Positions 368-46,435 of a stretch of 64,000 bases of DNA are shown one piece after another. Position 1 is the stretch's first letter. Every line of letters begins with the position of its first letter. A program made the position numbers and the translations under genes. A model generated the notes under the pieces. That model saw only the letters and a program-made list of their open reading frames with translations, searched no databases and was not told the DNA's origin. Source of the stretch: Alloacidobacterium dinghuense (lineage in GTDB: Bacteria; Acidobacteriota; Terriglobia; Terriglobales; Acidobacteriaceae); assembly GCF_014274465.1 (NCBI RefSeq), contig NZ_CP060394.1:1860001-1924000 (forward strand). The letters run 5' to 3'.

Positions 368-571
368 GGCTCCAGAGAAGATATAACAAGGCGTAGTTTA
401 TTGAGGAGATCTGCATCCTTCGATATCTATCACTCGAAACTGATTGCTGGTTACGTAATGTAGCGATATACTTTCGTAGTGTTTCATAATAGTTTCAAGG
501 CGACAAGATAGAGCATATTTCTCTTGATACCCTCTAGCCCACGCATAATGAAAAAAGAGAATCATATTCCA
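368..571. promoter_or_regulatory. Divergent promoter region with candidate DeoR-type operator
   Basis: This AT-rich gap separates the divergent kinase and SIS genes, so it should hold promoters for both. The segment 471-496 contains CTTTCGTAGT followed by GTTTCATAAT and GTTTC. The ten bases GTTTCATAAT (481-490) recur exactly at 4147-4156, in front of the DeoR-type regulator gene of the same locus, where they follow TTTC. TTTCG-rich half sites are common in operators of DeoR/GlpR/AgaR proteins. That this is the binding site is an inference from the shared word and the gene context. Confidence 0.4.
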
Positions 572-1705
572 ATGCCGATTTCCAATCATGCGAGCACAGA
601 GCTTGATCGCGTCATCCAAACGCTCTACACCTTCCAGGAGATCATGCAGCAGCCCGATTTGTGGCTTAATACGGTCGAGCGGGTTCGTGCTGCAGTTGAG
701 CAGTTGAATCTTACAACGAGATTGGCGAACGTGCGGGTGCTGCTTACGGGGGCCGGCACCTCAGCCTATGCGGCGGCCTCGATCGCCGCGGCCTGGCCGC
801 GGGCCGTAGCGGTTCCAACGACGGACTTGCTGGTGGACGCCGAGCGTTATCTCGCCGACATGGATGTGGTCATCTCTCTGGCACGTTCAGGAAACAGCCC
901 GGAGAGCGCTGCCGTAGTCAAGCGAGTACGGGCGGTGCGTCCGGAGATTCTTCAGTTAGCGATCACGTGCAACGAAGAAAGTACTCTGTCGCAATCGGGA
1001 TTGGACGGCTTGATTGTTCTTGATCCGAAGACAAATGATCGCAGCCTCGTGATGACCAGCTCCTTTTCAAATTTGGTGCTGGCTGGGCTCGCTCTTGCGC
1101 GATCTGACGAGATTGCGTCCACTGTCGGTGCCGTGAGCAAGAGGGTGGCTGAGCTGCTGCCATCGATCAATATAAGTTGCGAGCGCATTTCGGCGGATGT
1201 TCGTGATCGCGTCGTAATACTTGCCTCGTCGCCCTTTCGTGGCTGGACCTGCGAGGCCGGGCTTAAATTGCTCGAAATGACCGCGGGACACTTTTCCGTC
1301 GTAACGGAGAGTTTTCTCGGGTTGCGCCACGGTCCGATGTCTTTTGTTAAGCCGCAGACGCTCGTCCTGTGCCTGCTATCCAACGATCCGGTGCGTCGGA
1401 TGTACGAAGTGGACCTGATTCGCGAGTTACGCGCCAAGAAGATTGGCAGGCTGGTAGGCATCACACAGGCTACAGAAGAGAACGCGGCAGAAGCGGGAGA
1501 TCTATTCGACAACGTGCTGCCAGCGGTCGCTCCGCATCTGCCGGATGACTTGCGCACTTCCTTTGAGATCGTCACGCCACAGCTTCTCGGATACCATTTA
1601 AGCCTCAGTATTGGTTTGAATCCTGATAATCCAAGCCCAGACGGTATCATCAACCGTGTAGTTCAGGGGGTCAGAATTTATCCTGTGACCTCCGACAGAG
1701 GCTGA
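572..1705 (+). CDS. SIS-domain sugar isomerase/deaminase, AgaS-like
   Basis: The protein carries two SIS (phosphosugar isomerase) domains. The first has VLLTGAGTSAY and SLARSGNSPES, the phosphosugar-binding loops. The second has CEAGLKLLEMTAG and LGLRHGPMSFV, close to the pattern of AgaS-type proteins (tagatose-6-phosphate or galactosamine-6-phosphate ketose/aldose isomerases). Length is about 380 residues, as expected for AgaS. The frame is open from 524, but an ATG at 572 follows a purine-rich AAAAAAGAGA stretch and is preferred; ATG 548 is the alternative. It is followed 30 bases later by an APC permease. The SIS, PfkB kinase, APC permease and repressor set also resembles fructoselysine (frl) loci, so deglycation of an Amadori product is an alternative role. 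Confidence 0.8.
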   Translation: MPISNHASTELDRVIQTLYTFQEIMQQPDLWLNTVERVRAAVEQLNLTTRLANVRVLLTGAGTSAYAAASIAAAWPRAVAVPTTDLLVDAERYLADMDVVISLARSGNSPESAAVVKRVRAVRPEILQLAITCNEESTLSQSGLDGLIVLDPKTNDRSLVMTSSFSNLVLAGLALARSDEIASTVGAVSKRVAELLPSINISCERISADVRDRVVILASSPFRGWTCEAGLKLLEMTAGHFSVVTESFLGLRHGPMSFVKPQTLVLCLLSNDPVRRMYEVDLIRELRAKKIGRLVGITQATEENAAEAGDLFDNVLPAVAPHLPDDLRTSFEIVTPQLLGYHLSLSIGLNPDNPSPDGIINRVVQGVRIYPVTSDRG

Positions 1706-1735
1706 CTCCCGTACGCGCGGAGGTGACTCCCGCAT

Positions 1736-3187
1736 GTGCTGGCGCTAGCGACTGCACAAATCTATCTTTCTGGGAGCACGAGCTTGGCGCAACAGAAACA
1801 GACAGTTTCCGCATCAGCGGAAGGCGGAACAGCGAGCCTTCACCGGACGCTCGGCCTGTGGAATCTGATCATCATTGGATTGGTGATCATCCAGCCTACG
1901 GCGCCGATGGGAATCTATGGCGTCATCAGCAACAAGGCCAATGGCCACGTTGTTACTTCGATTCTCATCGCGATGGTCGCAATGCTGCTCACAGCCATCA
2001 GTTACGGCCGTATGGCGCGCGTTTATCCCAGCGCAGGCTCAGCCTATACGTATGTGGGGCAGGAGATCCACTCGGCTTTTGGCTATGTCGTCGGCTGGGG
2101 CATGGTGATGGATTACCTGCTGAATCCACTGATCTGCACAGCATTTTGCGCAAAGGCGGCGATGAATATTCTTCCCGGACTGTCCTACTACGTCTGGATC
2201 GTTATCTTCGCGGCCTTCTTCACATGGGTGAATCTGCGTGGTGTGAAGACCTCGGCACGCATGAACGAAGCGCTCTGCGCGGGCATGGTGATCGTGGTTG
2301 CAATCTTTCTGGTTTCTGTTGTCCGAACAGTTTGGCACATGCAACACGATCCCGGATTTTTCACGCGGCCCTTTTATGATCCGCAAAGCTTTCACCCTTC
2401 CAGCATCTTCGCTGGGACGTCTGTCGCAGTGCTTACCTATATCGGGTTCGATGCGGTATCGACGCTCTCGGAGGAAGCGGAGAATCCGCGACGCAATATT
2501 CTGCTTGCGACCGTCCTGGTCTGCCTGATTACGGGTCTGTTATCAGGCGTCGAAGTGTATGCGGCCCAGTTGATTTGGGGATCGAAGCCTTTTCCAAGCA
2601 ATCAGGTGGAATCATCATTTGCTCTCATCGCTCGGCAAGCAGGAGGTGCGCTACTCTTTCAGATCATCAATTTCACACTGCTGGTGGCGAATATGGGGTC
2701 CGGCATGGGATCGCAGCTCGCCGCTGGACGCCTGCTCTACGGTATGGGACGCGGCAACGCTTTGCCGAAATCATTTTTCGGAGCCATTGAGCCGAAGCGA
2801 CGTATTCCGCGCAACAACATCGTGGCGGTCGGGCTGTTTGCTTTCGCCGGGGCGGGGATTCTTGAATTCTTCTCCAGTCGTCTCGGAGGAGGCGCCTATG
2901 AAATCGGTGCGGAGGCGCTGAACTTTGGCGCTTTCATCGCATTTATGGGAGTGAATGCAGCGGCATTTGTCCACTACTGGCTGCATGGCAGGAACCGCAA
3001 CCTGAGCCATCTGTTCGTGCCTGTGCTCGGCTTTGTGATCTGCGGCTTTATCTGGGTTCATCTCAGCAGGCCCGCGCTAGTTCTCGGGGCGCTGTGGATG
3101 GTTGCAGGAATTACCTACGGAGCGATTCGCACACGCGGGTTCCGCTCTGAGCTCGTCACCTTCGAAGTGCCCCCAGAAGAGGCCTGA
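1736..3187 (+). CDS. APC-superfamily amino acid/amine permease
   Basis: This is a strongly hydrophobic protein of 483 residues with about 12 predicted membrane segments. It begins with the APC-type first helix (LGLWNLIIIGLVIIQPTAPMG) and has the SYGRMARVYPSAGSAYTYV segment of helices 2-3 and the GFDAVSTLSEEAENPRRN loop typical of the family. The start is a GTG at 1736, about ten bases after a strong GCGGAGGTGA ribosome binding site; an ATG two bases earlier is out of frame. It lies 30 bases after the SIS gene in the same direction, so co-transcription is likely. It probably imports the amino-containing substrate processed by the SIS protein and kinase. The substrate is not determined by sequence. 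Confidence 0.85.
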   Translation: MLALATAQIYLSGSTSLAQQKQTVSASAEGGTASLHRTLGLWNLIIIGLVIIQPTAPMGIYGVISNKANGHVVTSILIAMVAMLLTAISYGRMARVYPSAGSAYTYVGQEIHSAFGYVVGWGMVMDYLLNPLICTAFCAKAAMNILPGLSYYVWIVIFAAFFTWVNLRGVKTSARMNEALCAGMVIVVAIFLVSVVRTVWHMQHDPGFFTRPFYDPQSFHPSSIFAGTSVAVLTYIGFDAVSTLSEEAENPRRNILLATVLVCLITGLLSGVEVYAAQLIWGSKPFPSNQVESSFALIARQAGGALLFQIINFTLLVANMGSGMGSQLAAGRLLYGMGRGNALPKSFFGAIEPKRRIPRNNIVAVGLFAFAGAGILEFFSSRLGGGAYEIGAEALNFGAFIAFMGVNAAAFVHYWLHGRNRNLSHLFVPVLGFVICGFIWVHLSRPALVLGALWMVAGITYGAIRTRGFRSELVTFEVPPEEA

Positions 3188-3216
3188 TCACACATACGCG
3201 CGAGAGCGTCGGCGTT

Positions 3217-3975
3217 CTACGCCAAGATTAAGGTACAGCCTAGCGACCGCACCTTGGCCTGGATTTCATCGCGCAGGCCGGTGTCGCTCACGACGGTATC
3301 GATCTCGGAAAAAGCGGCAATACGCGACATGCTGCGCATGGTGAACTTGCTGGCGTCTGCCACCAGAATGATTTCGCGCGCAATTCGCAGCATCGCCCGG
3401 TTGACGGTTGTCTCTTCGAGATTTGCACCGCTGACGCCAAAGTCCGGATCGCATCCCGCGCCGCTCAGAAACAGCTTGTCAGCAGAGAATTGTTCGAGCA
3501 TGTCTTCAGTGGATCGGCCAATAATCGATGCCGACTCACCGCGCACGGTGCCGCCGACGATGAAGGTAGTTACACCGCGTGCGTCGAGCAACTCGGCTGC
3601 GATGTTCACTCCGTTGGTTATGACCTGAAGCGCCTGCTTGTTCTTGAGCTGGCGAGCTATTTCAAGTGTCGTGGTACCCGAGTCAAGAATGATGGTCTCG
3701 CCGTCGTTGATGAGCGTGGCCGCCATTGCGCCAATGCGCCGCTTCTCCTCGGCGTGGGCCTTTAGCCGCTCGGTGACGGGAGACTCGCGCAGGATGCGGT
3801 CGGGGAGCACCGCGCCACCGTGGGAGCGAAGCACTACGCCGCGCTGATGCAGTTCATTGAGGTCGTTGCGAATGGTGACCGCCGAGGTGTTGAACTTGTT
3901 CACCAGGTCATTGACCCGTACCCGGCCTTCACTGCGAACAATCTGCAGAATTTGCGAGCGCCGCTCTTCGGCCAT
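3217..3975 (-). CDS. DeoR/GlpR-family transcriptional repressor
   Basis: The N-terminus has the DeoR winged helix-turn-helix (MAEERRSQILQIV, then LVNKFNTSAVTIRNDLNEL and RGVVLRSHGGAV). The C-terminal DeoRC sensor domain follows, with DSGTTTLEIARQL and the TFIVGGTVRGESASIIG segment used to bind a phosphosugar. The frame is open up to 4128, but the HTH domain of this family begins only a few residues after the start, so the Met at 3975 (or 3978) is preferred over the 51-residue extension. It is convergent with the permease, 30 bases away. It most likely controls the adjacent sugar genes in response to a phosphorylated intermediate. Confidence 0.85.
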   Translation of the reverse strand: MAEERRSQILQIVRSEGRVRVNDLVNKFNTSAVTIRNDLNELHQRGVVLRSHGGAVLPDRILRESPVTERLKAHAEEKRRIGAMAATLINDGETIILDSGTTTLEIARQLKNKQALQVITNGVNIAAELLDARGVTTFIVGGTVRGESASIIGRSTEDMLEQFSADKLFLSGAGCDPDFGVSGANLEETTVNRAMLRIAREIILVADASKFTMRSMSRIAAFSEIDTVVSDTGLRDEIQAKVRSLGCTLILA

Positions 3976-4141
3976 CATTCCATCCGCAACCTGCTCTTCG
4001 ATGGCTCCGTTGCGGTTTGCATTCTTAACTGGCACGTTAGCGTGGGCCTTGACCATGTTCAACCTTCGCCTTTCAGTTTCTGTTGTCTTTGGCATTTTAT
4101 TGCGGTCTTCGAACCGCTCCGAATCCACTTACCATTCTGTT

Positions 4142-4340: not shown

Positions 4341-5384
4341 TCAACTCGCCTGCGTATAGTGAAGCGAGCACACGCAACGCTTGCATGTGGAGTTTTCCTG
4401 GACATTCAGTGTGCTTCGGAAGGCTCGCGCTTCCTCGTTGTTGAGCGCTTCTTCGAGTGTTGAAGCTTCGAGGCTGCCTGTCTTTGGGTGAAAGAAGCAA
4501 GGCCGCACTGATCCATCGACCTCAACCACAGCAGAAACCCAGGGCGCATTGCACTTTGGCGCTTCCGAGGAAACTTGCCCCAGATGAGCGCGGAAGTGGC
4601 GCGCAATCCGGCGAAGTTTTTCTGGGGATTCAACAATGAATCTGCTGTTAAAGTCATTGCCGTGCTCGCTGATCAATAGATCAATCTCTCTCTCCAGCAC
4701 CAGAATCTCAGTTGCTGATAACGCGATCTCATTCTGGCGTTCTCCAGGCCACACTAGTTCGCGATTGAATGCTTGCGAGGTGACATCTGCGGCAAGAAAT
4801 GAAATCGAGTCAAGCCCTAGTGATCGCGCAGCCTGTACCGTTTGTCTGAGAGATGAGTAGTTGGCTCTTTGCACTGTGCTGCGCCCACGGATTGGCAGGC
4901 TGGGGTTCAACTGTCGGAGGGCAAGAATACCGTCGCGTATGAGCTGAAAGCCGCCGCGCACGCGACGCACGCGATCATGTATCTCTTCGGGTCCATCGAG
5001 TGAGACGATGACTTCATCCGTCAACGTCGCCACTAACTCTGCACGTTTCTTTAAGAGCAGTCCAGTCGAAAGAAGAGTGATCGTGACTCCGCATTCCCGC
5101 AGAAAAGAGCAGAGCGCTTCAAGGTGACTGTGCAACAGCGGCTCGCCACCGGTTAACACAACCTGTCGTACGCCCAAGTTGATGATTGATTCTCGGTGGC
5201 GCGTGAGCTCTTCTGTGGTGAGTTCTCCAGCGTTGCTGCGCTTCCAAATGTCGCACATCAAGCAGCGGCAGTTGCACCGCTCATGCACATTCAAGATCAA
5301 GATCGGCAATTTCTGTAGGCGATCCGATGCGAGCAGTGTCGGCTTGATTTCAGCCAACCCGACGTGAACTAACTGGGACGACAT
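4341..5384 (-). CDS. Radical SAM protein with SPASM/twitch-like C-terminus
   Basis: The 347-residue protein has the radical SAM cluster motif C37-x3-C41-x2-C44, followed by the GGEPL motif (VLTGGEPLLHSH) and a SLDGPEEIHDRVR segment. The C-terminus has cysteines at 278, 296, 334, 337 and 339 with the CNAPW...VDGSVRPCFF arrangement of SPASM or twitch auxiliary-cluster domains. Such enzymes modify peptides or small molecules by radical chemistry. This is the last gene of the eight-gene minus-strand operon and overlaps the upstream fusion gene by 16 bases, so the two are translationally coupled. No short peptide substrate gene is visible next to it. The substrate is unknown. Confidence 0.85.
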   Translation of the reverse strand: MSSQLVHVGLAEIKPTLLASDRLQKLPILILNVHERCNCRCLMCDIWKRSNAGELTTEELTRHRESIINLGVRQVVLTGGEPLLHSHLEALCSFLRECGVTITLLSTGLLLKKRAELVATLTDEVIVSLDGPEEIHDRVRRVRGGFQLIRDGILALRQLNPSLPIRGRSTVQRANYSSLRQTVQAARSLGLDSISFLAADVTSQAFNRELVWPGERQNEIALSATEILVLEREIDLLISEHGNDFNSRFIVESPEKLRRIARHFRAHLGQVSSEAPKCNAPWVSAVVEVDGSVRPCFFHPKTGSLEASTLEEALNNEEARAFRSTLNVQENSTCKRCVCSLHYTQAS

Positions 5385-7327
5385 ACGGATTTTCCTCCCA
5401 GTCGCACAGCTCCTTCGCCGAGAACGCTCTCAGACTCGCGTAGCAGATCCTCAATTGGCGCCCGCAGCCAGCGAATATCGCCATCCACGGAAAGAGGCTC
5501 TAGTCCGTCTCGGTCTACATCTGGCAGACGCCCAAAGATAAATTGAGAGGCCAGCTGTACGCGCCCTGACAGCAGTACAAGCTCAATATCACTTGCACAA
5601 AGCGAAGAAAGGATTTCCGCTGGACTGCCCTGCCTGTCACGCACTGCAATCAAATCAGCCGGAGATCCCGAGCGAATCGAGCCTCTGCCATCCTTGATCC
5701 GCAGAATCGAAGCGGAAGAGTCTGTCACCATGGCAAACAACTTTTGCGCTGGCAGCTTACATGTTTCGTACGCAAAGCGGATTTCATCCAAAAGATCTCC
5801 TGCCGCTGTGAGAGGCGAGTCACTGCCAAGGGCCAGCCGTTCAACTGAATTCAAAACTTCAAGCCGCGGAGTTTTTCCGAAGAGAAAATCATTCGACGAG
5901 GGACACACAATGAGCGAGGTGCCACGAGAGTTTAATAAGTCTGCTGCTCTAACATCAAGAGCAAGCCCGTGAATGAGCACCGTCTTCTGATCCAACACCC
6001 CGAGCGTGTCGAGAGACACTAGCTCCTCGTTCGACTGATCGTCAATACCTTCGCAAGCATGAATCACGAACGGCCGGTCTTCTCCGCTACTAGAGTGCGC
6101 GGCCTGTATATCTGTGGCGAAGGCAAGCGAGTGTTCCCATCCAAGATCCGAGACAATGTGCACGGGAAAGTCTTGCGCTAATAAGGATGGATCAATGGGA
6201 TTGTGATGACAGACGGTCGTTACTCCACTCAGGAGATTGCGAATGCCTCCCCACCACAGGCGTGTGCGCTTCGGAATTCTTCGATGTACAGCGATAATCT
6301 CGGCATCACTCCGCTGAATATCCTGAGCCCACTGGGCTGCGTTCTTGTAACCTCCTCTTCCAAGTCTGGGGAAGAGAGCGAATTCCAGGTGATCGTGTGC
6401 GTTGATCAGTCCTGGAAAGATAAGGTAGCCGGTTAAGTCAATGCTCGTGATCGTCTGAGAGGCAATTGTCGGGGGGTGACTGCTCACTATCTCAACGCTT
6501 CCGTTATTCGTTGTTATGGACGTCGCGATTACTTCGCGTGGCCCTAGAGCGCATCTTGCTCCAGAGAGAAGAAGCCGATCTTTCTCCTCACCTGGAACGA
6601 GCGAACGATTATTATCTGCCTCGAGCTTCGTGAGATGCAGCAGATAAATCGCAGGAAGCCCCTCTGCCTCGGCGAAACGCTCCAAGCGGTTATGCGACGC
6701 GAAAAGATCTTTCTCCGGCGATCCAAATGCGGGTTCTATGACTGCCCGTTCCGAAAAACCCGCGGCTTTGAAGACATTCAATATCTCTGAGAGAGCCCAG
6801 CATTTCGCGGGCAATTCCAGTTCGGATTCGCCTATGTGAAATGACCGCTTCCAGCAAAGGCTCGTCGCCGTTTCTGGATGCATGTCGGATATAAAAACAT
6901 CGCAGCCTGGCCGAGCTACTCGCGCGAATTCTGCGGCGGCTTTGCCCAGATCATCTTCATAGCTCAGAACAAAGGATGCGAGCATTACATCCATTGTGGA
7001 GTCTTTGAACGGCAGGTTGGCGGACCCGGCCAAAGAGAGTTGTAGCTCCGGAATGTGCTTTGCGGCCGCTTGTGCAAGCATCTCCGGCGAAGGGTCTACA
7101 CCGTGTAGCGATTGGGGTCGTGATGATTGGCTGAACTGTGCGAGCCATCTGCCAGTGCCGCAACCCACGTCGAGAACGTCGCGCCCGTCTATTCTCGGAA
7201 GAATTCGCGATAAGTAGCGCTCTTCAAGCATCAGCAGAGGGTTTTCTTGCCGATCGTAGACGCTTGCCCACGCAGAGAACACATCTCCCGGTTGCGTTCT
7301 GGTTTCAAGTTGAGAAATCGCGCTCAC
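5369..7327 (-). CDS. Fusion of SAM methyltransferase and metal-dependent amidohydrolase
   Basis: Residues about 15-230 are a class I SAM-dependent methyltransferase: motif I VLDVGCGTGRW at 51-61, HGVDPSPEM at 75-83, and a predicted acceptor region. Residues about 245-640 are an amidohydrolase/cytosine deaminase-like TIM-barrel enzyme with metal ligands H311-x-H313 (NAHDHLEF), H423 (VIHACEG), H453 (LIHG) and D503 (GSDSPLT), plus the GSPADLIAV end typical of the superfamily. There is no stop or frameshift between the halves and the reading is continuous. It overlaps the upstream radical SAM gene by an ATGA. The amidohydrolase half could be a deaminase or ring hydrolase, and S-adenosylhomocysteine turnover is one possibility. 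This domain pairing is not one I recognise from a named pathway. Confidence 0.85.
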   Translation of the reverse strand: MSAISQLETRTQPGDVFSAWASVYDRQENPLLMLEERYLSRILPRIDGRDVLDVGCGTGRWLAQFSQSSRPQSLHGVDPSPEMLAQAAAKHIPELQLSLAGSANLPFKDSTMDVMLASFVLSYEDDLGKAAAEFARVARPGCDVFISDMHPETATSLCWKRSFHIGESELELPAKCWALSEILNVFKAAGFSERAVIEPAFGSPEKDLFASHNRLERFAEAEGLPAIYLLHLTKLEADNNRSLVPGEEKDRLLLSGARCALGPREVIATSITTNNGSVEIVSSHPPTIASQTITSIDLTGYLIFPGLINAHDHLEFALFPRLGRGGYKNAAQWAQDIQRSDAEIIAVHRRIPKRTRLWWGGIRNLLSGVTTVCHHNPIDPSLLAQDFPVHIVSDLGWEHSLAFATDIQAAHSSSGEDRPFVIHACEGIDDQSNEELVSLDTLGVLDQKTVLIHGLALDVRAADLLNSRGTSLIVCPSSNDFLFGKTPRLEVLNSVERLALGSDSPLTAAGDLLDEIRFAYETCKLPAQKLFAMVTDSSASILRIKDGRGSIRSGSPADLIAVRDRQGSPAEILSSLCASDIELVLLSGRVQLASQFIFGRLPDVDRDGLEPLSVDGDIRWLRAPIEDLLRESESVLGEGAVRLGGKSVCRPS

Positions 7328-8787
7328 AGGCTCTCACGTTTAGGTTTTCGCAATTGGATAAATTGATGTGCCCACTGCAACTCGATGGGGAAACTGTAAA
7401 TTCTCAGTGCGTAGCGCCAGGCGCTGAGAGTCTTTAGAACCGTCCTGCTCCAGCGGGGCGCGCGAATGTCCTGAACAGTGGGCCAGCGCGAGCCAACAAC
7501 AATCTCAAAATTATCAATGAGCTTCTTCGTCTTGCGTTTCATCCAGGGTGCGCTGGTATCAATACGAAGAGTGAAGTCCATCCACTTCTTCGTTGCCCAT
7601 TCCGCAGGTGTGTCGGGAAAGGATATTTGTCCATCGACATCTCCATACATCGAGCCTCGCTGCGGTGTCGGGGTATAGTGCTGAACAATGATCTCCGAAT
7701 CAGGATTGATCCGCTTGATCTTGCGGATGAAGCGCAGCGTCTCCCGGGTATCGCGCTCCGGGTCTTTGGGATTACCCACGACAAATGAGAACTCGGGAAT
7801 AATGCCGAACTGACGAGTGCGACGCGCCATGATCAACGTCTGCTCGGTCGTGATGCCTTTCTGCATCTCTTTGAGCGCCCAGTCCGATCCCGACTCTGCG
7901 CCGAAGAAGATCATGGCGCAACCAGCCCCTTTGATCGTCGCCATCGTTTCGTCGGAATATCGCGACATGATGTCTACGCGGCCCTCGCACCACCAGCGCA
8001 GATTCAGCGGCATCATCAGGTCCATCAATTTCCGTGCGTGATCTTCCCGTAGAAAGAAATTCATGTCGTAGAACTGGACCGAGTCAGCACCATATTTGGA
8101 TACGAGGTGCTTGAGTATGTCTACAGTTCGCTCTGGCGACTCCATGCGCTCTTCGCGTCCGTAGGCTGCGTGTACCCCACAAAAGCTGCAATTGAATGGG
8201 CAACCGATACTTGCATGATGAACGGCAGTTCGCTTCCCGAAAAACGATGGGCGAAGATACTGCTCCACTGGAAGCCGATGGAATGGTGACCATGGAAAAC
8301 TGTCTGGTCCTTTCATCGGACGCTCGGCGTTCGTGCGATGCAGGCCGAAAGTGTCTTTGTAGGAAAGACCAAGGATACTGTCGAACGATCGCTTGCCACG
8401 CAGCGCATCGATCAGTTCAAGCAGTGTTTCCTCACCCTGACCTCGCACCACAAAATCCACGTATTTTGCATTCAAAGTTGAGTCGGGGTAGATAGAAGGG
8501 AAGTATCCTCCCCAAACGATTTTGATATGCGGGCGCAGCCGCCTTATCTCTCGCGAAGCTTCCATGGCGGCGACCATTTGCGGGCCGGGCATGCAGGAAA
8601 CGCCGACGAGATCAACCTTACGGCTGTCTATGAAAGAAAGAATGGAGTCAACCGGCTTGTCGTCCAGGTTGCCATCAATAATCTCGTACTCTTCACGGCC
8701 TTCCAGGACAGCAGCCAAAGCCAGTATGGCAAGCGGAAGGCGGCAGTTGCGAGGTTTGGTAGCACGCGGATGGAAGAGAATGATCAC
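7324..8787 (-). CDS. B12-binding-domain radical SAM protein
   Basis: The N-terminal 150 residues form a Rossmann-like cobalamin-binding domain (VDLVGVSCMPGP, IKIVWGGYFPSIYP, VDFVVRGQGEETLLELI). The radical SAM motif is C196-x3-C200-x2-C203 (GCPFNCSFC), followed by an MIFFGAESGS segment and FVVGNPKD. This is the class B layout of radical SAM methylases and of BchE/HpnJ-like enzymes. Length, 487 residues, is normal for the group. The last 50 residues are basic and aromatic. It overlaps its downstream neighbour by an ATGA and starts within the end of the preceding methyltransferase gene, also by ATGA. The substrate cannot be read from sequence. It resembles the product of 13500-15020 in overall layout. 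Confidence 0.88.
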   Translation of the reverse strand: MIILFHPRATKPRNCRLPLAILALAAVLEGREEYEIIDGNLDDKPVDSILSFIDSRKVDLVGVSCMPGPQMVAAMEASREIRRLRPHIKIVWGGYFPSIYPDSTLNAKYVDFVVRGQGEETLLELIDALRGKRSFDSILGLSYKDTFGLHRTNAERPMKGPDSFPWSPFHRLPVEQYLRPSFFGKRTAVHHASIGCPFNCSFCGVHAAYGREERMESPERTVDILKHLVSKYGADSVQFYDMNFFLREDHARKLMDLMMPLNLRWWCEGRVDIMSRYSDETMATIKGAGCAMIFFGAESGSDWALKEMQKGITTEQTLIMARRTRQFGIIPEFSFVVGNPKDPERDTRETLRFIRKIKRINPDSEIIVQHYTPTPQRGSMYGDVDGQISFPDTPAEWATKKWMDFTLRIDTSAPWMKRKTKKLIDNFEIVVGSRWPTVQDIRAPRWSRTVLKTLSAWRYALRIYSFPIELQWAHQFIQLRKPKRESL

Positions 8788-9785
8788 GCAGTTTTCCTCG
8801 CACTGTAGATCCGGAAACGCGAGGGCTCACGTCTGCCGCGCAACTTTGCCAACAACGGACGCACGGTCCACTGCAGTCCATAGAAGGGGGTGTCGCGCTC
8901 CCATCGCACATTGAAAGCCTGCTCTAGGTGTGCGAGTCTTTTGTCCGTTAGATACTCAACGCTTGCGATTGAGTCTGACGCGGTACCGTATTGCTTAGTA
9001 AAGGCAGCCTGGCGCTCGGCAACCATCTGTTCGCCGCTCTTGGCCGCGGAATACCACGGAGAGTCGGCAATGATGACGGCTCCATGCTTCTTGGTGCACC
9101 GCAATGCTTCACGTATGGCTGCCTGATCATCCTCGGCATAGTGAAAGGAAGCATTGAAGATCACTGCATCAAACTGATCATCAGCAAAAGGAAGCCGGGA
9201 CATTTCCGCTCGGAAGCGAGGAAATAGATGATCGAGATGCTTTTCGAAATGGACGGCTGCACCTAATCCATCTTGATCGTTCGTCAAAATATCAACTGCT
9301 ATCGGCTTGTATCCTGCCAGTGCAAGGCGATAACTCATCCATCCATTTCCTGCGCCAAGATCAAGCACTATCGGCGATTGCTTACGATCATGAATGATTT
9401 GCGGCAGCACCTTTTTGATAAGGCAGTCAAAGGTGCGTGCGCGGATTTTCCATTGCCATGCGTTCTTGCCGGTTACATCTTGATAGGGGAGATTCAGATA
9501 GAAATCTTCCTGGAGGCTACCGCGGCCTTCTGCCGCTCGAATCGTTTGATAGTCCTCAATAAACCGAGAGAAGTGAGCAAGCCTCGCGGATGGGATCGCC
9601 TGCCCGATGTCCTTCTCGTTGCGCATTACAAATTCGCAATTTGAGCAATGGACGTCGGTTGGGTTTGCAGACTTGCACAAGGACAAATGCCCGAGGGTAG
9701 CAGCACAGCCGACACACTGCAACTGGATGCTATCAGCTGCAGCATGCAAGGTCTCACTCCTCATCTCGCAGAGTGTACTTGCCAC
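8784..9785 (-). CDS. SAM-dependent methyltransferase with N-terminal zinc-ribbon-like segment
   Basis: The core is a class I methyltransferase: motif I IVLDLGAGNGW near 139-149, then IAVDILTND, RLPFADDQFDAVIFNASFHY and KKHGAVIIADSP. The first 55 residues hold two CxxC pairs, C24/C27 and C47/C50, the spacing of a small zinc ribbon or rubredoxin-like knuckle. Similar Cys-rich heads occur on methyltransferases of sugar and natural-product clusters, so the arrangement is plausible for tailoring. It overlaps the next gene by ATGA and is separated from the preceding methyltransferase gene by two bases. It may methylate the product of the operon or serve a carrier-bound intermediate. ATG at 9764 is an alternative start. 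Confidence 0.85.
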   Translation of the reverse strand: MASTLCEMRSETLHAAADSIQLQCVGCAATLGHLSLCKSANPTDVHCSNCEFVMRNEKDIGQAIPSARLAHFSRFIEDYQTIRAAEGRGSLQEDFYLNLPYQDVTGKNAWQWKIRARTFDCLIKKVLPQIIHDRKQSPIVLDLGAGNGWMSYRLALAGYKPIAVDILTNDQDGLGAAVHFEKHLDHLFPRFRAEMSRLPFADDQFDAVIFNASFHYAEDDQAAIREALRCTKKHGAVIIADSPWYSAAKSGEQMVAERQAAFTKQYGTASDSIASVEYLTDKRLAHLEQAFNVRWERDTPFYGLQWTVRPLLAKLRGRREPSRFRIYSARKTA

Positions 9786-9787
9786 GA

Positions 9788-10597
9788 TTACACTCTCTCC
9801 ATCGACAACAACACGTGATCTCCGATGCTACGAAAGAACGGAAGATCACACAGGAGTTTGTCGACTTTTTTCATTGCAGCAAGCAGGCGCGTGTGTTCAG
9901 AGATCCAGCCTTCCAAATACGACGGTGGAGTCGTAATGCCGATACCAGTGATCGAACGTAGTCTGAACTCGGGGCTGAAGGATTTACGCAGCGACGCTAG
10001 CGTCGGGTAATAGACGAAAAAAGGGTGCCTTTCAAAGCTGGCGAGGGATTTTCCGCCCCATCGACGGATGGCCTTGCGAAAGTTGCCTTTGAGTGTGTAG
10101 TGCAGGGCCTCCCAGAGGCAGAAGCGCGTTGAGAGACACAGCAGGAGTTTTGCCCCGGGTCGAACGATTCTGGCAAGATCGCGGGAAACTCCGTGCAAAT
10201 CTTCGACGCAGTTGAGGCCTGAAAAATTCGAGAGCACACCGTCAAAATGCTGCTCAGGAAGCTCATGGATGCGCTCAGTAGGCAGCACCTGGAAGCTAAT
10301 TGGGGAATGCGGTACCTCAAGCTGGTGTCGTGCGCGCGCATGTCGAACCATCTGTTCTGAAGCGTCGCAAGCTGTGATGCGAATGCCTCTCTGAGCGAGA
10401 AAGATCGCATCCTCACCTGTACCGCAGTTAATCTCAAGGACGTGGTCGCCGGGGAGGAATGTTGAAGCTGCGCGATTCCAGACAATTTCGCGTTGTGCAC
10501 GACCGATGATCGTGAAGGTAAACAAATCATCGTAGTGGGTAGCCAGCGTGTCGAACGCTGCGCCTGCAGCGTGGGGAGAATCAAGAACGACGGTCAT
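9788..10597 (-). CDS. Class I SAM-dependent methyltransferase
   Basis: The 269-residue protein has methyltransferase motif I VLEINCGTGEDAIFLA (about residues 53-68), motif II-like ITACDASEQMV and a later FDGVLSNFSGLNCVED segment, a pattern common in UbiE-like enzymes. The start chosen is the ATG that overlaps the stop of the upstream radical SAM gene by ATGA. The longer frame to 10639 would overlap it by 46 bases and adds a Cys/Trp-rich head with no family support. The C-terminal third, rich in aromatic and basic residues, is not diagnostic. It is the fourth gene of the operon. No acceptor is evident. Confidence 0.85.
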   Translation of the reverse strand: MTVVLDSPHAAGAAFDTLATHYDDLFTFTIIGRAQREIVWNRAASTFLPGDHVLEINCGTGEDAIFLAQRGIRITACDASEQMVRHARARHQLEVPHSPISFQVLPTERIHELPEQHFDGVLSNFSGLNCVEDLHGVSRDLARIVRPGAKLLLCLSTRFCLWEALHYTLKGNFRKAIRRWGGKSLASFERHPFFVYYPTLASLRKSFSPEFRLRSITGIGITTPPSYLEGWISEHTRLLAAMKKVDKLLCDLPFFRSIGDHVLLSMERV

Positions 10598-11991
10598 TGT
10601 TCGACCTCGTGATAGGTAGACAACAGTCCAGCACGCCATTCGTGAATATGCTGATCGAGAACGCCAATCTCAGATGGTTCGCCTACGCCATCATTCTGAA
10701 TAAGCTTCGCGCGAGCCACTTCGTCACGCAACAGCTTGTCTGCAAAGCTGTAGAAGGCCTTCGTGTGCTTTCCCTTGACCTTCAACTCGCGATCGGAGGT
10801 CTTGCCCCACGGCTCAAGCTGAACGAGGCGATCAGATATCTTCTTGTAATAAGGCGTTCCCTTGATTGGATATGAGACGGTCGTAAAGAAAATATCCGGC
10901 TGTGACACGCTTACATGTTGAATCGTTGCTTCAATATCTTCGAGGTCTTCTCCTTCATAACCCCACATTAGGAACATACCGCTCTGTATGCCGCGCTCGC
11001 GGCTCATTTTCACTGCATTCTGGACCTGCTCTATTTTCACGCCGCGGTCCATCGCGTCGAGAATGCGCTGTGAACCGCTCTCCGAGCCAATCCAGAGACG
11101 AAAACAGCCGAGATCGGCGAGAAGATCCAACATTTCAGCATTCAGACGATCGGCGCGTGAGATGCACTCAAACGGAATGTGCAGATTCCGTCGACGCATC
11201 TCGTTCGCATACGAGCGAAGCCAAGCGTGATTGATGGTGAACACATCGTCGGAAACCCAGACCATATCCGGTGAGTAGTTTTGGAGAAGCCATTCAACCT
11301 CGTCCACAACTAAAATCGGATCGCGCCGGCGATGCGATTGCCCGAAGACCTGATGACTGCACCAATTGCAACGGAAAGGACATCCCCGCGCGGTGATGAA
11401 ATTGATCGAGCCGCTTCCGTGATGCGTTCGCCAAGTGTCCACATAGCGCTGAATATTGATGGCGTCGCGCGCGGGCCACGGCTGCAAATCAAGATTGGCG
11501 ATCTGGGCTTGTGGCGGCATCTGGCGCATCTCCCCATCCCTATCGAGAAACGCCAGGCCTGCAACCTTCGAAAAGTCAGTTTCGCCCGCGCGCATGGCCT
11601 CCAGAAGCTCTTCGAGCGTCAGTTCGCCTTCACCCGAGACGACAAAATCAGCGCCAGCCTGCAGATATTCAAGCGTGTAGGCGCCCGGCTCAGGGCCGCC
11701 TACTACGGTCTTCCATCCTGCTTCGCGAGCAACGCCAAGAATCTCAATGACATTGCTGCGCGTCATCAGGTTTGCATATACACCTAACAGAGATGGCTTT
11801 TCAGTGCGAAGCAGGGTAAAGAGTTCTTCGCGACTGGAAAATGTTGTGTCGAAGACATCTACGGCGAAACCTTTGTTCCGAAGATGGGAGCAGATGTAGA
11901 GAATTCCCAAGGGAGCGTACGGCTTCATAATCTGCCGCTCCTTTGGGTCTTCAAATAGGAAGTACCCGTGAGTAAGCAGAAGATCGCGCAT
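10594..11991 (-). CDS. B12-binding-domain radical SAM protein
   Basis: A 465-residue class B radical SAM protein. The N-terminal domain starts MRDLLLTHGYFLFEDPKE and continues MKPYAPLGILYICSHLRNKG, PSLLGVYANLM, KTVVGGPEP and ADFVVSGEGELTLEELL, as in cobalamin-binding Rossmann domains. The [4Fe-4S] motif is C204-x3-C208-x2-C211 (GCPFRCNWC), followed by WIGSESGSQRILDAMDRG, which closely matches the neighbouring paralogue. Its start directly abuts the stop of that paralogue (TGA then ATG, no gap). The shared LLTHGY/LLTHSY start and GCPF-CNWC motif suggest that this gene and 11992-13500 arose by duplication and may act on successive or similar positions. Confidence 0.88.
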   Translation of the reverse strand: MRDLLLTHGYFLFEDPKERQIMKPYAPLGILYICSHLRNKGFAVDVFDTTFSSREELFTLLRTEKPSLLGVYANLMTRSNVIEILGVAREAGWKTVVGGPEPGAYTLEYLQAGADFVVSGEGELTLEELLEAMRAGETDFSKVAGLAFLDRDGEMRQMPPQAQIANLDLQPWPARDAINIQRYVDTWRTHHGSGSINFITARGCPFRCNWCSHQVFGQSHRRRDPILVVDEVEWLLQNYSPDMVWVSDDVFTINHAWLRSYANEMRRRNLHIPFECISRADRLNAEMLDLLADLGCFRLWIGSESGSQRILDAMDRGVKIEQVQNAVKMSRERGIQSGMFLMWGYEGEDLEDIEATIQHVSVSQPDIFFTTVSYPIKGTPYYKKISDRLVQLEPWGKTSDRELKVKGKHTKAFYSFADKLLRDEVARAKLIQNDGVGEPSEIGVLDQHIHEWRAGLLSTYHEVEQ

Positions 11992-13500
11992 TCACGCACT
12001 CCTCGCAGCAATCAATCCGCTCACCGGAAACAGCCCTGATTCTGTAGCGTGCGGGGCCAGTTCTGTGAACTCCGCGTTTCTGCTCAAAGGTTCCAACAGA
12101 TGGACGCGTTGCCACAACTCTTCGGCGGTGGAAAGAGAGGATATGGCAGATGTTGAGTACCAACCGCTGACTTCTGCGTGCAACGCATCGCGCACAGCGC
12201 GGTAAAAATCAGTTGTGTACGCAGCCTTGAACATGATGCAGAGGTCATCACTGTCCGTCCAGTTCCGCTTTGCTCCTAGTTCCGCCTGCACGCGTTGATA
12301 GAAGACAGTGCCAGGCAGCGGATACGAGATAGAAATGCCGATGTCATCGGGCCGCGTTTTGCGGACAAACGCGATTGTCTCCTGGAGTTCGTGCCAGCTC
12401 TCACCTGGATATCCAAACTGGAGAAAATAGCAGGCGCGGATGCCGGCATGTTGCAGACGCTGACGTGCGGTAACGACTGACGAGAGTTTCAGCCGCTTGT
12501 CCATGGCGTCCAGAATCTTTTGCGATCCGGACTCCACCCCCATCCACACCTCGGTGCATCCAGCCGACTTCAGCGCCGCGACGGTTGATTCGCTCATCAG
12601 ATCCGCACGCGATTGAACCTTAAACGGCAGTGAAGCGTTTCGAGCCTTTACTTCTGCTGCAAATTCCTGCATCCAGTGCTGATTGAGAGCAAAGATGTCG
12701 TCGCCGAACCAGATGTGTTCGGCCCGTGCCACCTTCTTAAGCTGGCGCATTTCTTCGGCGACTTCTACCGCAGGACGCAGATGATACTTGTTCCCCGAGA
12801 TCGGCTTGGCGCACCAGTTGCAATGGAATGGGCATCCTCTTCCGGCAACCATGTTCACCGAGAAGTATCCGTGTGCCTCCTTCCACGCTTTGCGGTAGGG
12901 TTCAAGATTGATTAGGTTTCGTGAAGGTGCTGCCAGATTCGCCCATTCCGGATTTCGTGAAAACCTCTGCGAAGTGTGCACCAGTCGTCTTTGTACGTCG
13001 AGTCGCACTAGCCCGGGAATGTCGCCGACAGGCTCTGAGCGCAAAAGAGCTGAGCACAACTCTGCCAGCGTCTGCTCGGCTTCTCCTTGCAGAATGTAGT
13101 CGATGCCATTCTCAAGAAACAGTCTGGCATTGTCTGTCGCATCCGAGCCATGAGCGATCACGGTGGCGCCGCTCAAGCGACTCATTGCGGCAATCTCGAA
13201 TGCAACCTCACGCATCCGAGTCAGGCACATCTTGGAGAGGAAATTGAAGTCGTCCTCGTAGATAGTGACAATTCGCGGGCGATGAGCCTCGATCGCGCGT
13301 TGTATGCCGGCAATCGGGTCCTCAAGCATCGGGTCGAAGACGGCAACAGATATATGCTTTGCCCGCAGCGCAGTAGCCGCATACAACGTTCCAATCGGCG
13401 AGTACGGCTGCATCTTACGCATCTGCTTCTGGTCGTACGGAAGATGATACGAGTGCGTAAGCAGCACATCAGCGGGTTCCTGCATTTCAACGCCGCTCAT
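11992..13500 (-). CDS. B12-binding-domain radical SAM protein
   Basis: The start chosen is the ATG at 13500, which shares its A with the TGA of the upstream gene (TGATG). The open frame to 13656 overlaps the upstream coding region and lacks domain support. The 502-residue protein has a cobalamin-binding-like N-terminal domain (DVLLTHSYHLPYDQKQ, then YSPIGTLYAATALRAKH and DYILQGEAEQTLAEL) and the radical SAM motif C223-x3-C227-x2-C230 (GCPFHCNWC). WMGVESGSQKILDAMDKR follows, as in its downstream paralogue. The C-terminal 80 residues are specific to this protein. It is the second gene of the operon. Confidence 0.88.
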   Translation of the reverse strand: MSGVEMQEPADVLLTHSYHLPYDQKQMRKMQPYSPIGTLYAATALRAKHISVAVFDPMLEDPIAGIQRAIEAHRPRIVTIYEDDFNFLSKMCLTRMREVAFEIAAMSRLSGATVIAHGSDATDNARLFLENGIDYILQGEAEQTLAELCSALLRSEPVGDIPGLVRLDVQRRLVHTSQRFSRNPEWANLAAPSRNLINLEPYRKAWKEAHGYFSVNMVAGRGCPFHCNWCAKPISGNKYHLRPAVEVAEEMRQLKKVARAEHIWFGDDIFALNQHWMQEFAAEVKARNASLPFKVQSRADLMSESTVAALKSAGCTEVWMGVESGSQKILDAMDKRLKLSSVVTARQRLQHAGIRACYFLQFGYPGESWHELQETIAFVRKTRPDDIGISISYPLPGTVFYQRVQAELGAKRNWTDSDDLCIMFKAAYTTDFYRAVRDALHAEVSGWYSTSAISSLSTAEELWQRVHLLEPLSRNAEFTELAPHATESGLFPVSGLIAARSA

Positions 13501-15020
13501 CAGCACGCCGCCTCCGCCGGAGTATTCGCAAGTCGCTTTGCATCCACGGCCGGTTTCATTGCCGTGTACTTCTTCAGCTTGTTGTTCACCCACAGTTCGA
13601 CAGGGAACTTGTAGATATCGCGGTCGAGTCTCCAACGAGCAGGGAACGAAATACACTTTTGCGCGAGACGAGTGATTGTGCCGCGTTTGTCCGCTGCAAT
13701 TGGAATGCGGTCAAAGGCGATGCGCAGATAGTCCCTCGTTACCTGCAGGCGCTTGTGCTCGGCTCCATCCAGCCACGGCAGCCGGGTGTAGCGCGGAAAG
13801 AAATCCGCCCATTCTTCTAGAGACTTTGGAACCTCAATGCCAAGTTTCTCTGTTTTGTCGAAGATTGGCGAGCCTGGATACGGTGTAAAAATGTTGGTCC
13901 AAAACTCAGTGCCGGGAAGGCGGCGGCACATGTCCATCATGAAGTTGATGGTTTCACGCCGTTCTTTTCTCCCTTCTCCCGGAAAGGCGAAGATGATGTT
14001 GAAGGAGGGACGAATACCAGCCTCAAGGCAACGCGCGGCACTCTCGTAAATCGATTCAACGTCCTGCCAGCTCTTTTGCATTGCTTTCAGCACTGTGGGC
14101 GACCCTGATTCCGCTCCCTGACAGACCTGATGAAGCCCGGCACGCCGCAGCAGCTTCAGGTCCTCGGTCGAGAGTCGCGAGGTTAAATTGGTCGTCGCCT
14201 GAATGCTCCAGCGATAATGCGAATTGGCTCGCACCAGACCCTCGGCTATCGCCCGCGCACGATCGAGATCAACCAGGAAATTGTCATCGACGATCCAGAG
14301 CATCTCCAGTGCGTACCTGCGACTGAGATCAACTGTCTCCTCCACAAACTGCTCAGCGGGCAGAGCATTCCATTTACGCCCGTAGACGCCCGCGTTTGTG
14401 CAATACGCACAATTGAATGGGCACGCCAGGCTGGATGTATACATTGCCCAGCGCCTACCGCAAGTACGCTCGTAAGCATCGAAGTCAGCAATGTGATAGG
14501 CCTTGGGTGGCATTTCGACGAGCTGTCTCAGAGGCCGCTCAGGGGTCATAATCATCCGCCCGTCGCGCTTGAATCCGATGCCAGCTACAAAGTCCGGCGC
14601 GGAGCCGCTCGCAATGTGTTGAATAAGCTCAAGGAGTGAGTCCTCGCCCTGACCGCGAACGATGTAGTCGAGGTAAGGCGCCTCAAGCGTCTGCTTGGGA
14701 AGCAGGGACGGATGCCATCCACCGAGGATGATCGGGAAGTCGGGGTTCCAGGCCTTGATGGCCTTTGCGATCTCGACCGTTTCCCGAATCATGGGGCCTG
14801 TTACGAGAGAGATGCCGAGACAAAGTGCGTCCTGGACCTCAGTGAGCACCCGCTGTTTGAAATTTGGGGTGATTGTGGAATCGATCAGCACTACCTCAAA
14901 GCCGGCACGGAGCAGAGGAGTGGCAACAGCTAGAATCCCGAGCGGAGCCGTAGCTTCGGAACTCGCGAACGAAGGGAAAAAGAAGACGATTTTCCGAGAT
15001 TTTTTCAAGTTGCGCTTCAT
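13500..15020 (-). CDS. B12-binding-domain radical SAM protein, first gene of operon
   Basis: A 506-residue class B radical SAM protein beginning MKRNLKKSRKIVFFFPSF. The Rossmann-like cobalamin domain includes PLGILAVATPLLRAG, LGISLVTGP, IILGGWHPSLLP and LDYIVRGQGEDSLLELI. The cluster motif is C200-x3-C204-x2-C207 (ACPFNCAYC), followed by VCQGAESGSPTVLKAMQK and FNIIFAFPGEG. It has a basic C-terminal tail with KFPVELWVNNKLKKYTAMKP, comparable to the FPIELQWAHQFIQLRK end of the 7324-8787 product, so these two are likely paralogues. Because nothing lies upstream in the same direction for 200 bases, it is probably the promoter-proximal gene of the operon. Confidence 0.88.
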   Translation of the reverse strand: MKRNLKKSRKIVFFFPSFASSEATAPLGILAVATPLLRAGFEVVLIDSTITPNFKQRVLTEVQDALCLGISLVTGPMIRETVEIAKAIKAWNPDFPIILGGWHPSLLPKQTLEAPYLDYIVRGQGEDSLLELIQHIASGSAPDFVAGIGFKRDGRMIMTPERPLRQLVEMPPKAYHIADFDAYERTCGRRWAMYTSSLACPFNCAYCTNAGVYGRKWNALPAEQFVEETVDLSRRYALEMLWIVDDNFLVDLDRARAIAEGLVRANSHYRWSIQATTNLTSRLSTEDLKLLRRAGLHQVCQGAESGSPTVLKAMQKSWQDVESIYESAARCLEAGIRPSFNIIFAFPGEGRKERRETINFMMDMCRRLPGTEFWTNIFTPYPGSPIFDKTEKLGIEVPKSLEEWADFFPRYTRLPWLDGAEHKRLQVTRDYLRIAFDRIPIAADKRGTITRLAQKCISFPARWRLDRDIYKFPVELWVNNKLKKYTAMKPAVDAKRLANTPAEAAC

Positions 15021-15224: not shown

Positions 15225-16076
15225 TCAATGGATCCGAATATCGCCGGAGCCAGTTTCGACACGCACAGTGGGACCGCCACCGTTCACATCACCGGTAATG
15301 TGGTGCTTCTCGAAGCTTCCGTGCGTGGTGATCGGCGGATCGCTATGGACGGAGCCCGAGCCCGTCTGCGCATCCAGTGAAAACCGCGCACTGCCCGTGC
15401 CGAGAGTTACCGAACCAGATCCGGTCTGTAGTCGCCAGGACGATGTAGGCTGTCCCTGAACTTCAATATCGCCCGAGCCGGTTTCAGCATAGAGCTCGCC
15501 CTGCACGCCCTTCAGACGGATGGAGCCGCTGCCAGTCTCAGCTTTCACGTCCGTGGACGATTGCAGCTCTGCACGGATATCACCTGATCCAGTTTGCAAT
15601 GCCGTTCGCCCGCTTAAGCCGGAGGCATCGATGGAGCCCGACCCGGTATTGAGCTTCGCAGGGCCGCTCAGATCGGAAACGTGAATGTCTCCGGATCCGC
15701 TATTCGCGGAAAGATCGGTGCCCTTTGGCGTCGTGACGTCATAGTCGATCGAAATGTTCTTGTACTCGGTATGTTTGCCGATACTGATGGTGTTTCCGGT
15801 TTGCTCGATTGGTGGGTTCGCCACGACCTGGCGAACTCTCTCCTCCGGCGAACCGCTATCTATCCAGCTGTTCCATTTAGCCGCGTGCACGTGGCCAATG
15901 ATGTGAACGCTCGAATCCGAACCGGGCGTGATGTGGATGTAACCGGAACCAGTATTCACGGAGAGCGTAACCGCCCCGTTCGTCTGCAGCGTCTTGTCGA
16001 AGGTTCCGTCTGCTGCAAGAAGTGCCGCAGGCGTCAACAGCAGCGCCGTTAGCGCGAGTGCTTTATGAAGATGCAT
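15225..16076 (-). CDS. DUF4097-type exported beta-repeat protein
   Basis: From the ATG at 16076 the protein has a signal peptide (MHLHKALALTALLLTPAALLAA) followed by about 255 residues in which an N/Q/E-(T/S)-G-S-G-(D/S/Y)-I/V unit recurs nine times (for example NTGSGYIHI, NSGSGDIHV, ETGSGDIRI). Such spacing is that of the DUF4097 beta-helix-like family, whose biochemical role is not established. The longer frame to 16142 is dismissed because it puts a non-secretory segment in front of the signal peptide. The gene follows a HlyD-type adaptor gene on the same strand by 71 bases and may be expressed with it. Cell-envelope location is inferred. Confidence 0.8.
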   Translation of the reverse strand: MHLHKALALTALLLTPAALLAADGTFDKTLQTNGAVTLSVNTGSGYIHITPGSDSSVHIIGHVHAAKWNSWIDSGSPEERVRQVVANPPIEQTGNTISIGKHTEYKNISIDYDVTTPKGTDLSANSGSGDIHVSDLSGPAKLNTGSGSIDASGLSGRTALQTGSGDIRAELQSSTDVKAETGSGSIRLKGVQGELYAETGSGDIEVQGQPTSSWRLQTGSGSVTLGTGSARFSLDAQTGSGSVHSDPPITTHGSFEKHHITGDVNGGGPTVRVETGSGDIRIH

Positions 16077-16147
16077 AACGAAGTCCTTTGCTTGACATAG
16101 CGATGTGAAATAGATCTTATTGGCTGCGAAGAGCCAGCACACCTACT

Positions 16148-46190: not shown

Positions 46191-46435
46191 AAATATTGAA
46201 CCATTAGGCGAATCGGCGAAACGTTGTTGGTGAATGGCGCACAACCATACAGGCCGTGAAGAACGACACTTCACAGCATAGTGAATGCATCGCGCTTTTA
46301 GTTTCTGCTGCTTGAATTTATTGCGGCCAATTCGTGTGTGCATCCTAGGGTGTCAAGGCTTTACTGTCAAGATTTTGCGATGTAAGCTTGGACTCCAGAA
46401 TCAACAGTCAATTTCGAAGTCACGGGTTGCATAAC
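46191..46435. promoter_or_regulatory. Divergent promoter region between tssK1 and the FTQ-repeat gene
   Basis: This AT-rich gap must hold promoters for tssK1-tssL-tssM (leftward) and for the repeat protein (rightward). A TGTCAAG direct repeat with 14-base periodicity is present at about 46350-46371. I see no strong -35/-10 pair and no palindrome like that found at the tssB promoter. Confidence 0.3.

Follow-up and report, generated by a model that had tools for sequence, protein, structure and literature searches.

Eight genes on one strand

The subject of this analysis is an eight-gene operon in a 64,000-nt stretch of the Alloacidobacterium dinghuense genome (contig NZ_CP060394.1, forward-strand positions 1,860,001 to 1,924,000; hereafter the window). 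The genome comprises 6.27 Mb on a single contig, with an estimated completeness of 99.99%, and the loci closest to that of the window in a species-genome collection were Acidobacteria records. Eight open reading frames (ORFs), all on the minus strand, extend from position 15020 down to 4341 in the order G1-G2-G3-G4-G5-G6-G7-G8. According to Pfam, they encode four B12-binding-type radical S-adenosylmethionine (SAM) enzymes, two methyltransferases, a methyltransferase-amidohydrolase fusion and a radical SAM/SPASM enzyme, a content and location already reported in a preliminary description made from the sequence alone. All eight genes code for a domain that uses SAM, and five radical SAM enzymes in one operon are, in our judgement, unusual. 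The operon is a real, strongly selected biosynthetic module for which we found no product in the open literature: titles and abstract openings among the open-access matches listed included no paper on it, and none of the eight proteins attained the curated threshold of a listed NCBIfam model (for four proteins, the best 25 matches). Thus, the earlier failure to match the genes to a characterized cluster was repeated with these searches.

The first gene, G1 (13500..15020), encodes a B12-binding-type radical SAM protein of 506 amino acids (aa), with Pfam scores of 65.7 bits for B12-binding and 72.3 bits for Radical_SAM. G2 (11992..13500; 502 aa) is an AprD4-like radical SAM protein with a Radical_SAM score of 70.8 bits and a weak B12-binding match (36.3 bits, cut-off 32.1); a longer ORF reaching 13656 would start within G1. 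Pfam likewise places G3 (10594..11991; 465 aa) among the B12-binding-type radical SAM proteins, and it scored 161.5 bits with the BchE model, whose cut-off is 481. G4 (9788..10639; 283 aa, or 269 aa from the ATG at 10597) and G5 (8784..9785; 333 aa) are class I SAM methyltransferases, matching Methyltransf_25 at 55.9 bits and Methyltransf_11 at 54.1 bits, respectively. G4 scored 63 bits with the model of the corrinoid protein-associated methyltransferase CpaM (cut-off 180), and two CxxC pairs can be read close to the N-terminus of G5. G6 (7324..8787; 487 aa) is the remaining B12-binding-type radical SAM protein (B12-binding, 76.7 bits; Radical_SAM, 55.6 bits). G7 (5369..7327) joins a methyltransferase (residues ~1 to 215; G7-N) to a zinc-type amidohydrolase of the Amidohydro_1 family (residues ~240 to 652; G7-C), both by Pfam. 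The last gene, G8 (4341..5384), encodes a radical SAM/SPASM protein of 347 aa with both domains above cut-off (65.9 and 41.4 bits).

The junctions are as tight as expected of one operon, in agreement with the preliminary description. G1 and G2 overlap by 1 nt (TGATG), the stop codon of G2 directly touches the start codon of G3 (TGA-ATG), G4 and G5 are separated by 2 nt, and G7 and G8 overlap by 16 nt, all as described before. The 4-nt overlaps, formerly all given as ATGA, required correction: those at G5/G6 and G6/G7 are GTGA, and an ATGA is found at G3/G4 if G4 begins at the in-frame ATG at 10597, the overlap being 46 nt from the first ATG. A scan for promoters and terminators returned 5 and 13 sites, numbers inside the spread of shuffled sequences.

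The CxxxCxxC motif, previously reported to be intact in all radical SAM proteins, was found once in each of the five (at position 200 in G1, 204 in G3 and 196 in G6) and in none of the other three proteins. In G8, C37, C41 and C44 as well as C278, C296, C334, C337 and C339 are invariant in 32 aligned rows. In the amidohydrolase domain of G7, H79xH81, H191, E194, H221 and D271 (numbering of the domain alignment) are invariant in 38 rows. The two paralogue pairs proposed earlier were recovered, G2 with G3 (31.7% identity over 439 aa, 236 bits) and G1 with G6 (29.9% over 418 aa, 186 bits), both scoring higher than the cross pairs (77 to 101 bits).

Conservation, gene order and selection

When contigs representing one genome per species were scanned once with the fusion protein, 54 loci were obtained; all of them carry the amidohydrolase by choice of query, and many are short contigs. 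By tblastn, all nine domains are present in full order on one strand in 24 of these (an adjacent second gene copy being allowed), and 47 are colinear when missing genes are allowed. The seven non-colinear loci are L056, L057, L058, L059, L079, L080 and L083. Since the same order returns in 24 of 54 loci, the eight-gene arrangement is beyond chance. In 34 loci, the sequence extends 9 kb or more upstream of the amidohydrolase; of these, 33 have G2, 32 have G4, 31 have the G7 methyltransferase domain, 30 each have G6 and G8, 28 each have G3 and G5, and 26 have G1. Named soil isolates hold the full set in order, among them Edaphobacter lichenicola (L033, L037 and L038) and a Granulicella sp. (L036). 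The best G1 copy in 29 loci had a median identity of 75% (range, 37 to 90%). A second G1-like gene, 38 to 41% identical to G1, occurs in 14 of the 34 loci and has no counterpart in the window; a copy hidden elsewhere in the window's genome was rejected, as the best match there was G1 itself (40%). The fusion in G7 was scored as a single open frame in 19 of 47 scorable loci and not in the other 28, a class that may include assembly errors; fusion is thus confined to part of the family.

Co-inheritance extends to the phylum. In 396 sampled genomes, the amidohydrolase was detected in 27 (E ≤ 1e-40) and G6 in 34 (E ≤ 1e-90); 22 genomes had both, 5 the amidohydrolase alone and 12 G6 alone (Fisher p 5e-23). 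Comparison of the window's proteins with those of L030 and L031 gave nonsynonymous divergences (dN) of 0.05 to 0.33 and high or saturated synonymous divergences (dS). Low dN at such dS indicates that the operon proteins are under strong selection. In a plasmid search with G3, the best identity was 29% among the best 15 of 125 records.

Spread beyond Acidobacteriota and age of the paralogues

The gene set is conserved outside close relatives, so that the lack of conservation which the preliminary description had named as a refutation did not occur: it was found across Acidobacteriota and, as partial sets, in records of three other phyla, from Anaerolineales, Ignavibacteria and Elusimicrobia. 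With the domain alignment (E ≤ 1e-60, centre genome counted), the class to which the Anaerolineales record belongs had 17 matching genomes out of 298, and that of an Ignavibacteria record had 13 out of 294.

In a tree of 228 B12-type proteins, all 69 G6 proteins formed one group (support 1.0), as did all 63 G2 proteins (0.65) and all 46 G3 proteins (1.0), the labels being best hits to the window's proteins, so that the tree tests consistency. Each of these three groups spans Acidobacteriota and other phyla. The 50 G1-like proteins fell into a group of 46, all acidobacterial, and a group of 4. Because the orthologue groups separate cleanly across phyla, the paralogues appear to be old and specialized, and probably not fresh copies repeating one step. 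The tree thus speaks against recent duplication of one methylase.

Nearest solved relatives

Structural comparisons with VIA-align were restricted to Foldseek's top 1000 chains. AprD4 was the best PDB relative of G2 by phmmer (82 bits) and by profile (101 bits), and it also headed the comparison with the predicted G2 structure (mean predicted local distance difference test [pLDDT] score, 85.9), with a Z score of 30.4, a root-mean-square deviation (rmsd) of 3.2 and 425 aligned residues, followed by OxsB (Z 27.3) and MgmA (Z 26.9). Identity to AprD4 is, however, 22%, and G2 scored 90.1 bits with NF033070, the corresponding NCBIfam model, versus a cut-off of 500. The PDB title of AprD4, an enzyme of the apramycin pathway, describes a radical SAM 1,2-diol dehydratase, solved with paromamine. 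Since AprD4 is nearest to G2 by sequence and by fold, at least one of the four B12-type enzymes need not be a methylase, and the successive radical methylations put forward in the preliminary description are not supported as stated.

For G8, the best PDB relative by profile was the cytosylglucuronate decarboxylase BlsE, over the radical SAM core (79.5 bits), and BtrN matched the C-terminal part (37.9 bits); with the BlsE model TIGR04466, G8 reached 57.8 bits versus a cut-off of 400. G1, G3 and G6 share the B12-type domain and the radical SAM core with TokK, CysS, TsrM, OxsB and MgmA but reached no NCBIfam cut-off. The best PDB relatives were TokK and 9ccb (MgmA) for G1, 9ccb for G3, and AprD4 and 9ccb, at a similar level, for G6. 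With both domains and the CxxxCxxC motif, G1, G3 and G6 have the domain makeup that defines putative cobalamin-dependent radical SAM enzymes; they would be expected to bind cobalamin and to transfer a methyl group or catalyze another cobalamin-dependent step.

The closest folds to the predicted G7 amidohydrolase (pLDDT, 93.5) were deaminases of adenosine, methylthioadenosine (MTA) and S-adenosylhomocysteine (SAH), namely 4f0s, TM0936 (1p1m), 4gbd and 4dzh, with Z scores of ~36; the top seven matches had Z scores of 36.4 to 35.6 and rmsd values of 2.7 to 3.2 over 342 to 362 aligned residues. These enzymes share the pattern of metal-binding and catalytic residues but are only 18 to 22% identical, and the window's amidohydrolase, unlike them, is fused to a methyltransferase. 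Judged by its predicted fold and its HxH, His, His and Asp set, the domain is a TRZ/ATZ-deaminase-like member of the amidohydrolase superfamily. The substrates of AprD4, BlsE/BtrN and the deaminases are sugars, aminocyclitols or nucleosides; PDB names and titles mention some of them (paromamine, cytosylglucuronate and adenosine). These remote relatives suggest, rather than prove, a class of substrate.

Glycan genes beside partial modules

Neighborhoods were searched with nine queries, a nucleotidyltransferase and eight glycan genes, among them GT4, GT87, GT9, GT2, UDPGT, a polysaccharide flippase and a Wzy-type gene. Six loci supplied the glycan queries, and five of these six belong to the non-acidobacterial set that was tested. 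As controls, 20 stretches were drawn at random from 13 genomes belonging to this set. L113, a gene-for-gene repeat of L080, was excluded from the 31 non-acidobacterial loci, and its genome (G614) gave two of the control stretches. The 31 loci had 58 matches, that is, 2.10 per 20 kb versus 0.15 in controls (Mann-Whitney p 4e-5), and at least one match to the nine queries was present in 21 of 31 loci versus 3 of 20 controls. The enrichment persisted without the five query-source loci (16 of 26 loci, 1.72 per 20 kb, p 3e-4) and when the nucleotidyltransferase was removed as well (14 of 26 loci versus 2 of 20 controls; Fisher p 0.002). By Pfam, representatives contain GT4, GT87, GT9, GT2, flippase, Wzy_C, UDPGT and Poly_export genes. 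Outside Acidobacteriota, these neighbors point to the cell envelope as the probable destination of the product; for the window's organism, we infer the same by analogy.

A reduced acidobacterial version of the module has G2, G5 and the amidohydrolase in a row, without most radical SAM genes. In six loci, a UDPGT-type glycosyltransferase is encoded nearby; in L143, the neighbors include GT87, NTP_transf_5, HPr-kinase-like (below cut-off) and Poly_export proteins. L143 also carries a GTP cyclohydrolase II gene (6021 to 6680) flanking the reduced cluster, and in L056 two genes beside the cluster (2436 to 3128 and 6859 to 7599) are of riboflavin type by the look of their sequences. The GTP cyclohydrolase II gene was considered as a clue to the substrate and set aside as a likely housekeeping neighbor, judging from L056. 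A nucleotidyltransferase-like family of ~314 aa, below the Pfam cut-off, was present in 15 loci, often directly before G2 (for example, L083:17297-18238); all but one of these loci are from Anaerolineae or Ignavibacteria, the exception being acidobacterial.

A proposed sugar-remodeling module and its alternatives

The same operon order in many soil Acidobacteria, together with partial sets beside surface-sugar genes elsewhere, makes a rare, modified product of sugar-like nature probable. We tentatively propose, at somewhat short of even chances, that the operon is a biosynthetic module for remodeling a residue that resembles a sugar, aminosugar or cyclitol and whose most likely destination is a glycan or glycolipid of the cell envelope. 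The radical SAM steps would change the carbon skeleton of this residue: G2 might deoxygenate or dehydrate it in an AprD4-like step; G1, G3 and G6 might add C-methyl groups or alter rings by B12-type chemistry; and G8 might oxidize or decarboxylate it in a BlsE/BtrN-like step. G4, G5 and G7-N would methylate nitrogen or oxygen, and G7-C might hydrolyze a C-N bond, either on an intermediate or on the by-products SAH and 5'-deoxyadenosine.

Several observations weigh against this proposal. The search that revealed glycan genes in other phyla found them in 6 of 50 acidobacterial loci (stretches L141 to L156, several of which repeat loci of the 54, being excluded from the 50), at 0.15 per 20 kb, which is the control level, and four of these six loci (L053 and L056 to L058) belong to the reduced version. 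In the window, Pfam found no glycan gene among the ORFs scanned (the operon and 21 flanking ORFs), and the eight operon proteins include no sugar-nucleotide enzyme by Pfam. Some modules lack the amidohydrolase: at the thresholds used, 12 of the 34 genomes with G6 were without the amidohydrolase, and none of 12 stretches around G6 (L181 to L192, with L184 and L191 shorter than 6 kb) had an amidohydrolase above 45 bits. Several of these stretches carry homologues of G2, G3, G4 or G5. In the phylum of the Elusimicrobia record, 1 of 247 genomes matched, namely, the record's own. The top structural matches are distant, at 18 to 22% identity, and the pointer to a sugar is weak because the relatives are remote and radical SAM enzymes change substrate easily.

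If the sugar-remodeling proposal holds, the operon would represent a new type of envelope chemistry with several new radical reactions; if it fails, a conserved pathway without an assigned product is left. As named soil isolates hold the set, the operon can be deleted and its product sought, and because the B12-type enzymes fall into defined orthologue groups, single enzymes are ready for testing. A more far-reaching version, which we regard as on the unlikely side, is a cross-phylum envelope-glycan chemistry, not described before. As many as five B12-type radical SAM enzymes and a SPASM enzyme would rebuild one sugar-like residue by deoxygenation, C-methylation and perhaps ring change, and in the window's organism this chemistry would rely on cobalamin from neighbors. 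It would tie surface structure to the supply of this vitamin in soil.

A narrower role for G7-C, unlikely in our view and compatible with the other readings, is the removal of by-products: it would deaminate SAH and 5'-deoxyadenosine and so protect the radical SAM enzymes and the methyltransferases from product inhibition, with the fusion to one methyltransferase aiding channeling. Its closest folds, the MTA/SAH/adenosine deaminases, its invariant catalytic set and the use of SAM throughout the operon all fit this role, and the abstract of PMC6079011 names 5'-deoxyadenosine as a toxic by-product of radical SAM enzymes. However, G7-C scored far below the cut-offs of the NCBIfam deaminase models (49.9 bits with the 5'-deoxyadenosine deaminase model NF005557, cut-off 522), modules without the amidohydrolase exist, and the reduced version (L053 and L056 to L058) has the amidohydrolase with G2 and G5 but not most of the radical SAM genes.

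The same sugar or cyclitol chemistry might instead yield a small molecule that is released into the surroundings, like an aminoglycoside or a nucleoside antibiotic, which we consider decidedly unlikely. The solved structures nearest to G2 and G8, those of AprD4, BlsE and BtrN, are of enzymes from such pathways; the full acidobacterial operon is without adjoining glycan genes; and the spread is patchy, as seen from the amidohydrolase counts in the phylum. Yet when we read the sequences of neighbor families present in at least three loci, we recognized neither a dedicated exporter nor a resistance gene; the largest such family (14 of 67 loci) appears HPr-kinase-like. In addition, partial modules outside Acidobacteriota tend to sit in glycan loci.

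Tailoring of a hopanoid or another membrane lipid, methylated or cyclized by the B12-type enzymes in the manner of HpnJ, HpnR and ladderane-type enzymes, appears improbable. The HpnJ, HpnR and rSAM_ladder models gave 64 to 119 bits on the four B12-type proteins, far below their cut-offs and indicative of likeness at the superfamily level. A hopene cyclase above the TIGR01507 cut-off was found in all seven acidobacterial genomes examined, the window's own included, but in none of 25 non-acidobacterial genomes with the amidohydrolase, where three weak partial matches occurred. Among lipids, hopanoids were the ones tested, and hopanoid tailoring is unlikely as a general function since the module is present in genomes without a hopene cyclase.

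Least probable is a pathway, similar in logic to that of bottromycin, for a ribosomally synthesized and post-translationally modified peptide (RiPP), whose precursor would be acted on by several radical SAM C-methylases together with a SAM methyltransferase and an amidohydrolase. SPASM enzymes often act on peptides, and the ApyD and rSAM_ocin_1 models gave 65 to 113 bits, below cut-off, on the four B12-type proteins. The bottromycin cluster, for which a passage in PMC5103208 lists three radical SAM methyltransferases, an O-methyltransferase and an amidohydrolase, resembles the operon in combining several radical SAM methyltransferases with a methyltransferase and an amidohydrolase; the operon differs in having five radical SAM enzymes, one of them SPASM, no adjacent conserved precursor and no YcaO domain in its eight proteins (Pfam). 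Small ORFs (20 to 110 aa) within 2 kb of the operon ends were not widely conserved, the largest family occurring in 4 of 32 loci, which argues against an adjacent precursor, though less so against a distant one. The earlier statement that nonribosomal peptide synthetase, polyketide synthase and lanthipeptide genes are lacking stands for the operon and the 21 flanking ORFs of the window, the range covered by Pfam.

Cobalamin supply

CobS was not detected in the window's complete genome or in 9 of 12 relatives, versus detection in 10 of 14 controls; it was present in two of three other genomes searched of the window's genus. The window's genome has ten places with a B12-binding domain, four in the operon and six outside it (one below cut-off). 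Because CobS was not detected and four B12-binding places lie in the operon, the window's organism may depend on imported cobalamin.

Neighboring features of the window

Directly downstream of the operon, positions 524 to 4128 encode an AgaS-family sugar isomerase (SIS), an amino acid permease and an AgaR-like DeoR repressor, which scored 257.1 bits with the AgaR model (cut-off 260). Directly upstream of G1 and on the same strand, positions 15225 to 16142 encode a DUF4097 "toastrack" protein with many TGSGDI-like repeats. Farther away, two TssK/VasE-type genes (Pfam T6SS_VasE; 44838 to 46343 and 48196 to 49551) lie in one type VI secretion cluster at ~40700 to 63640.

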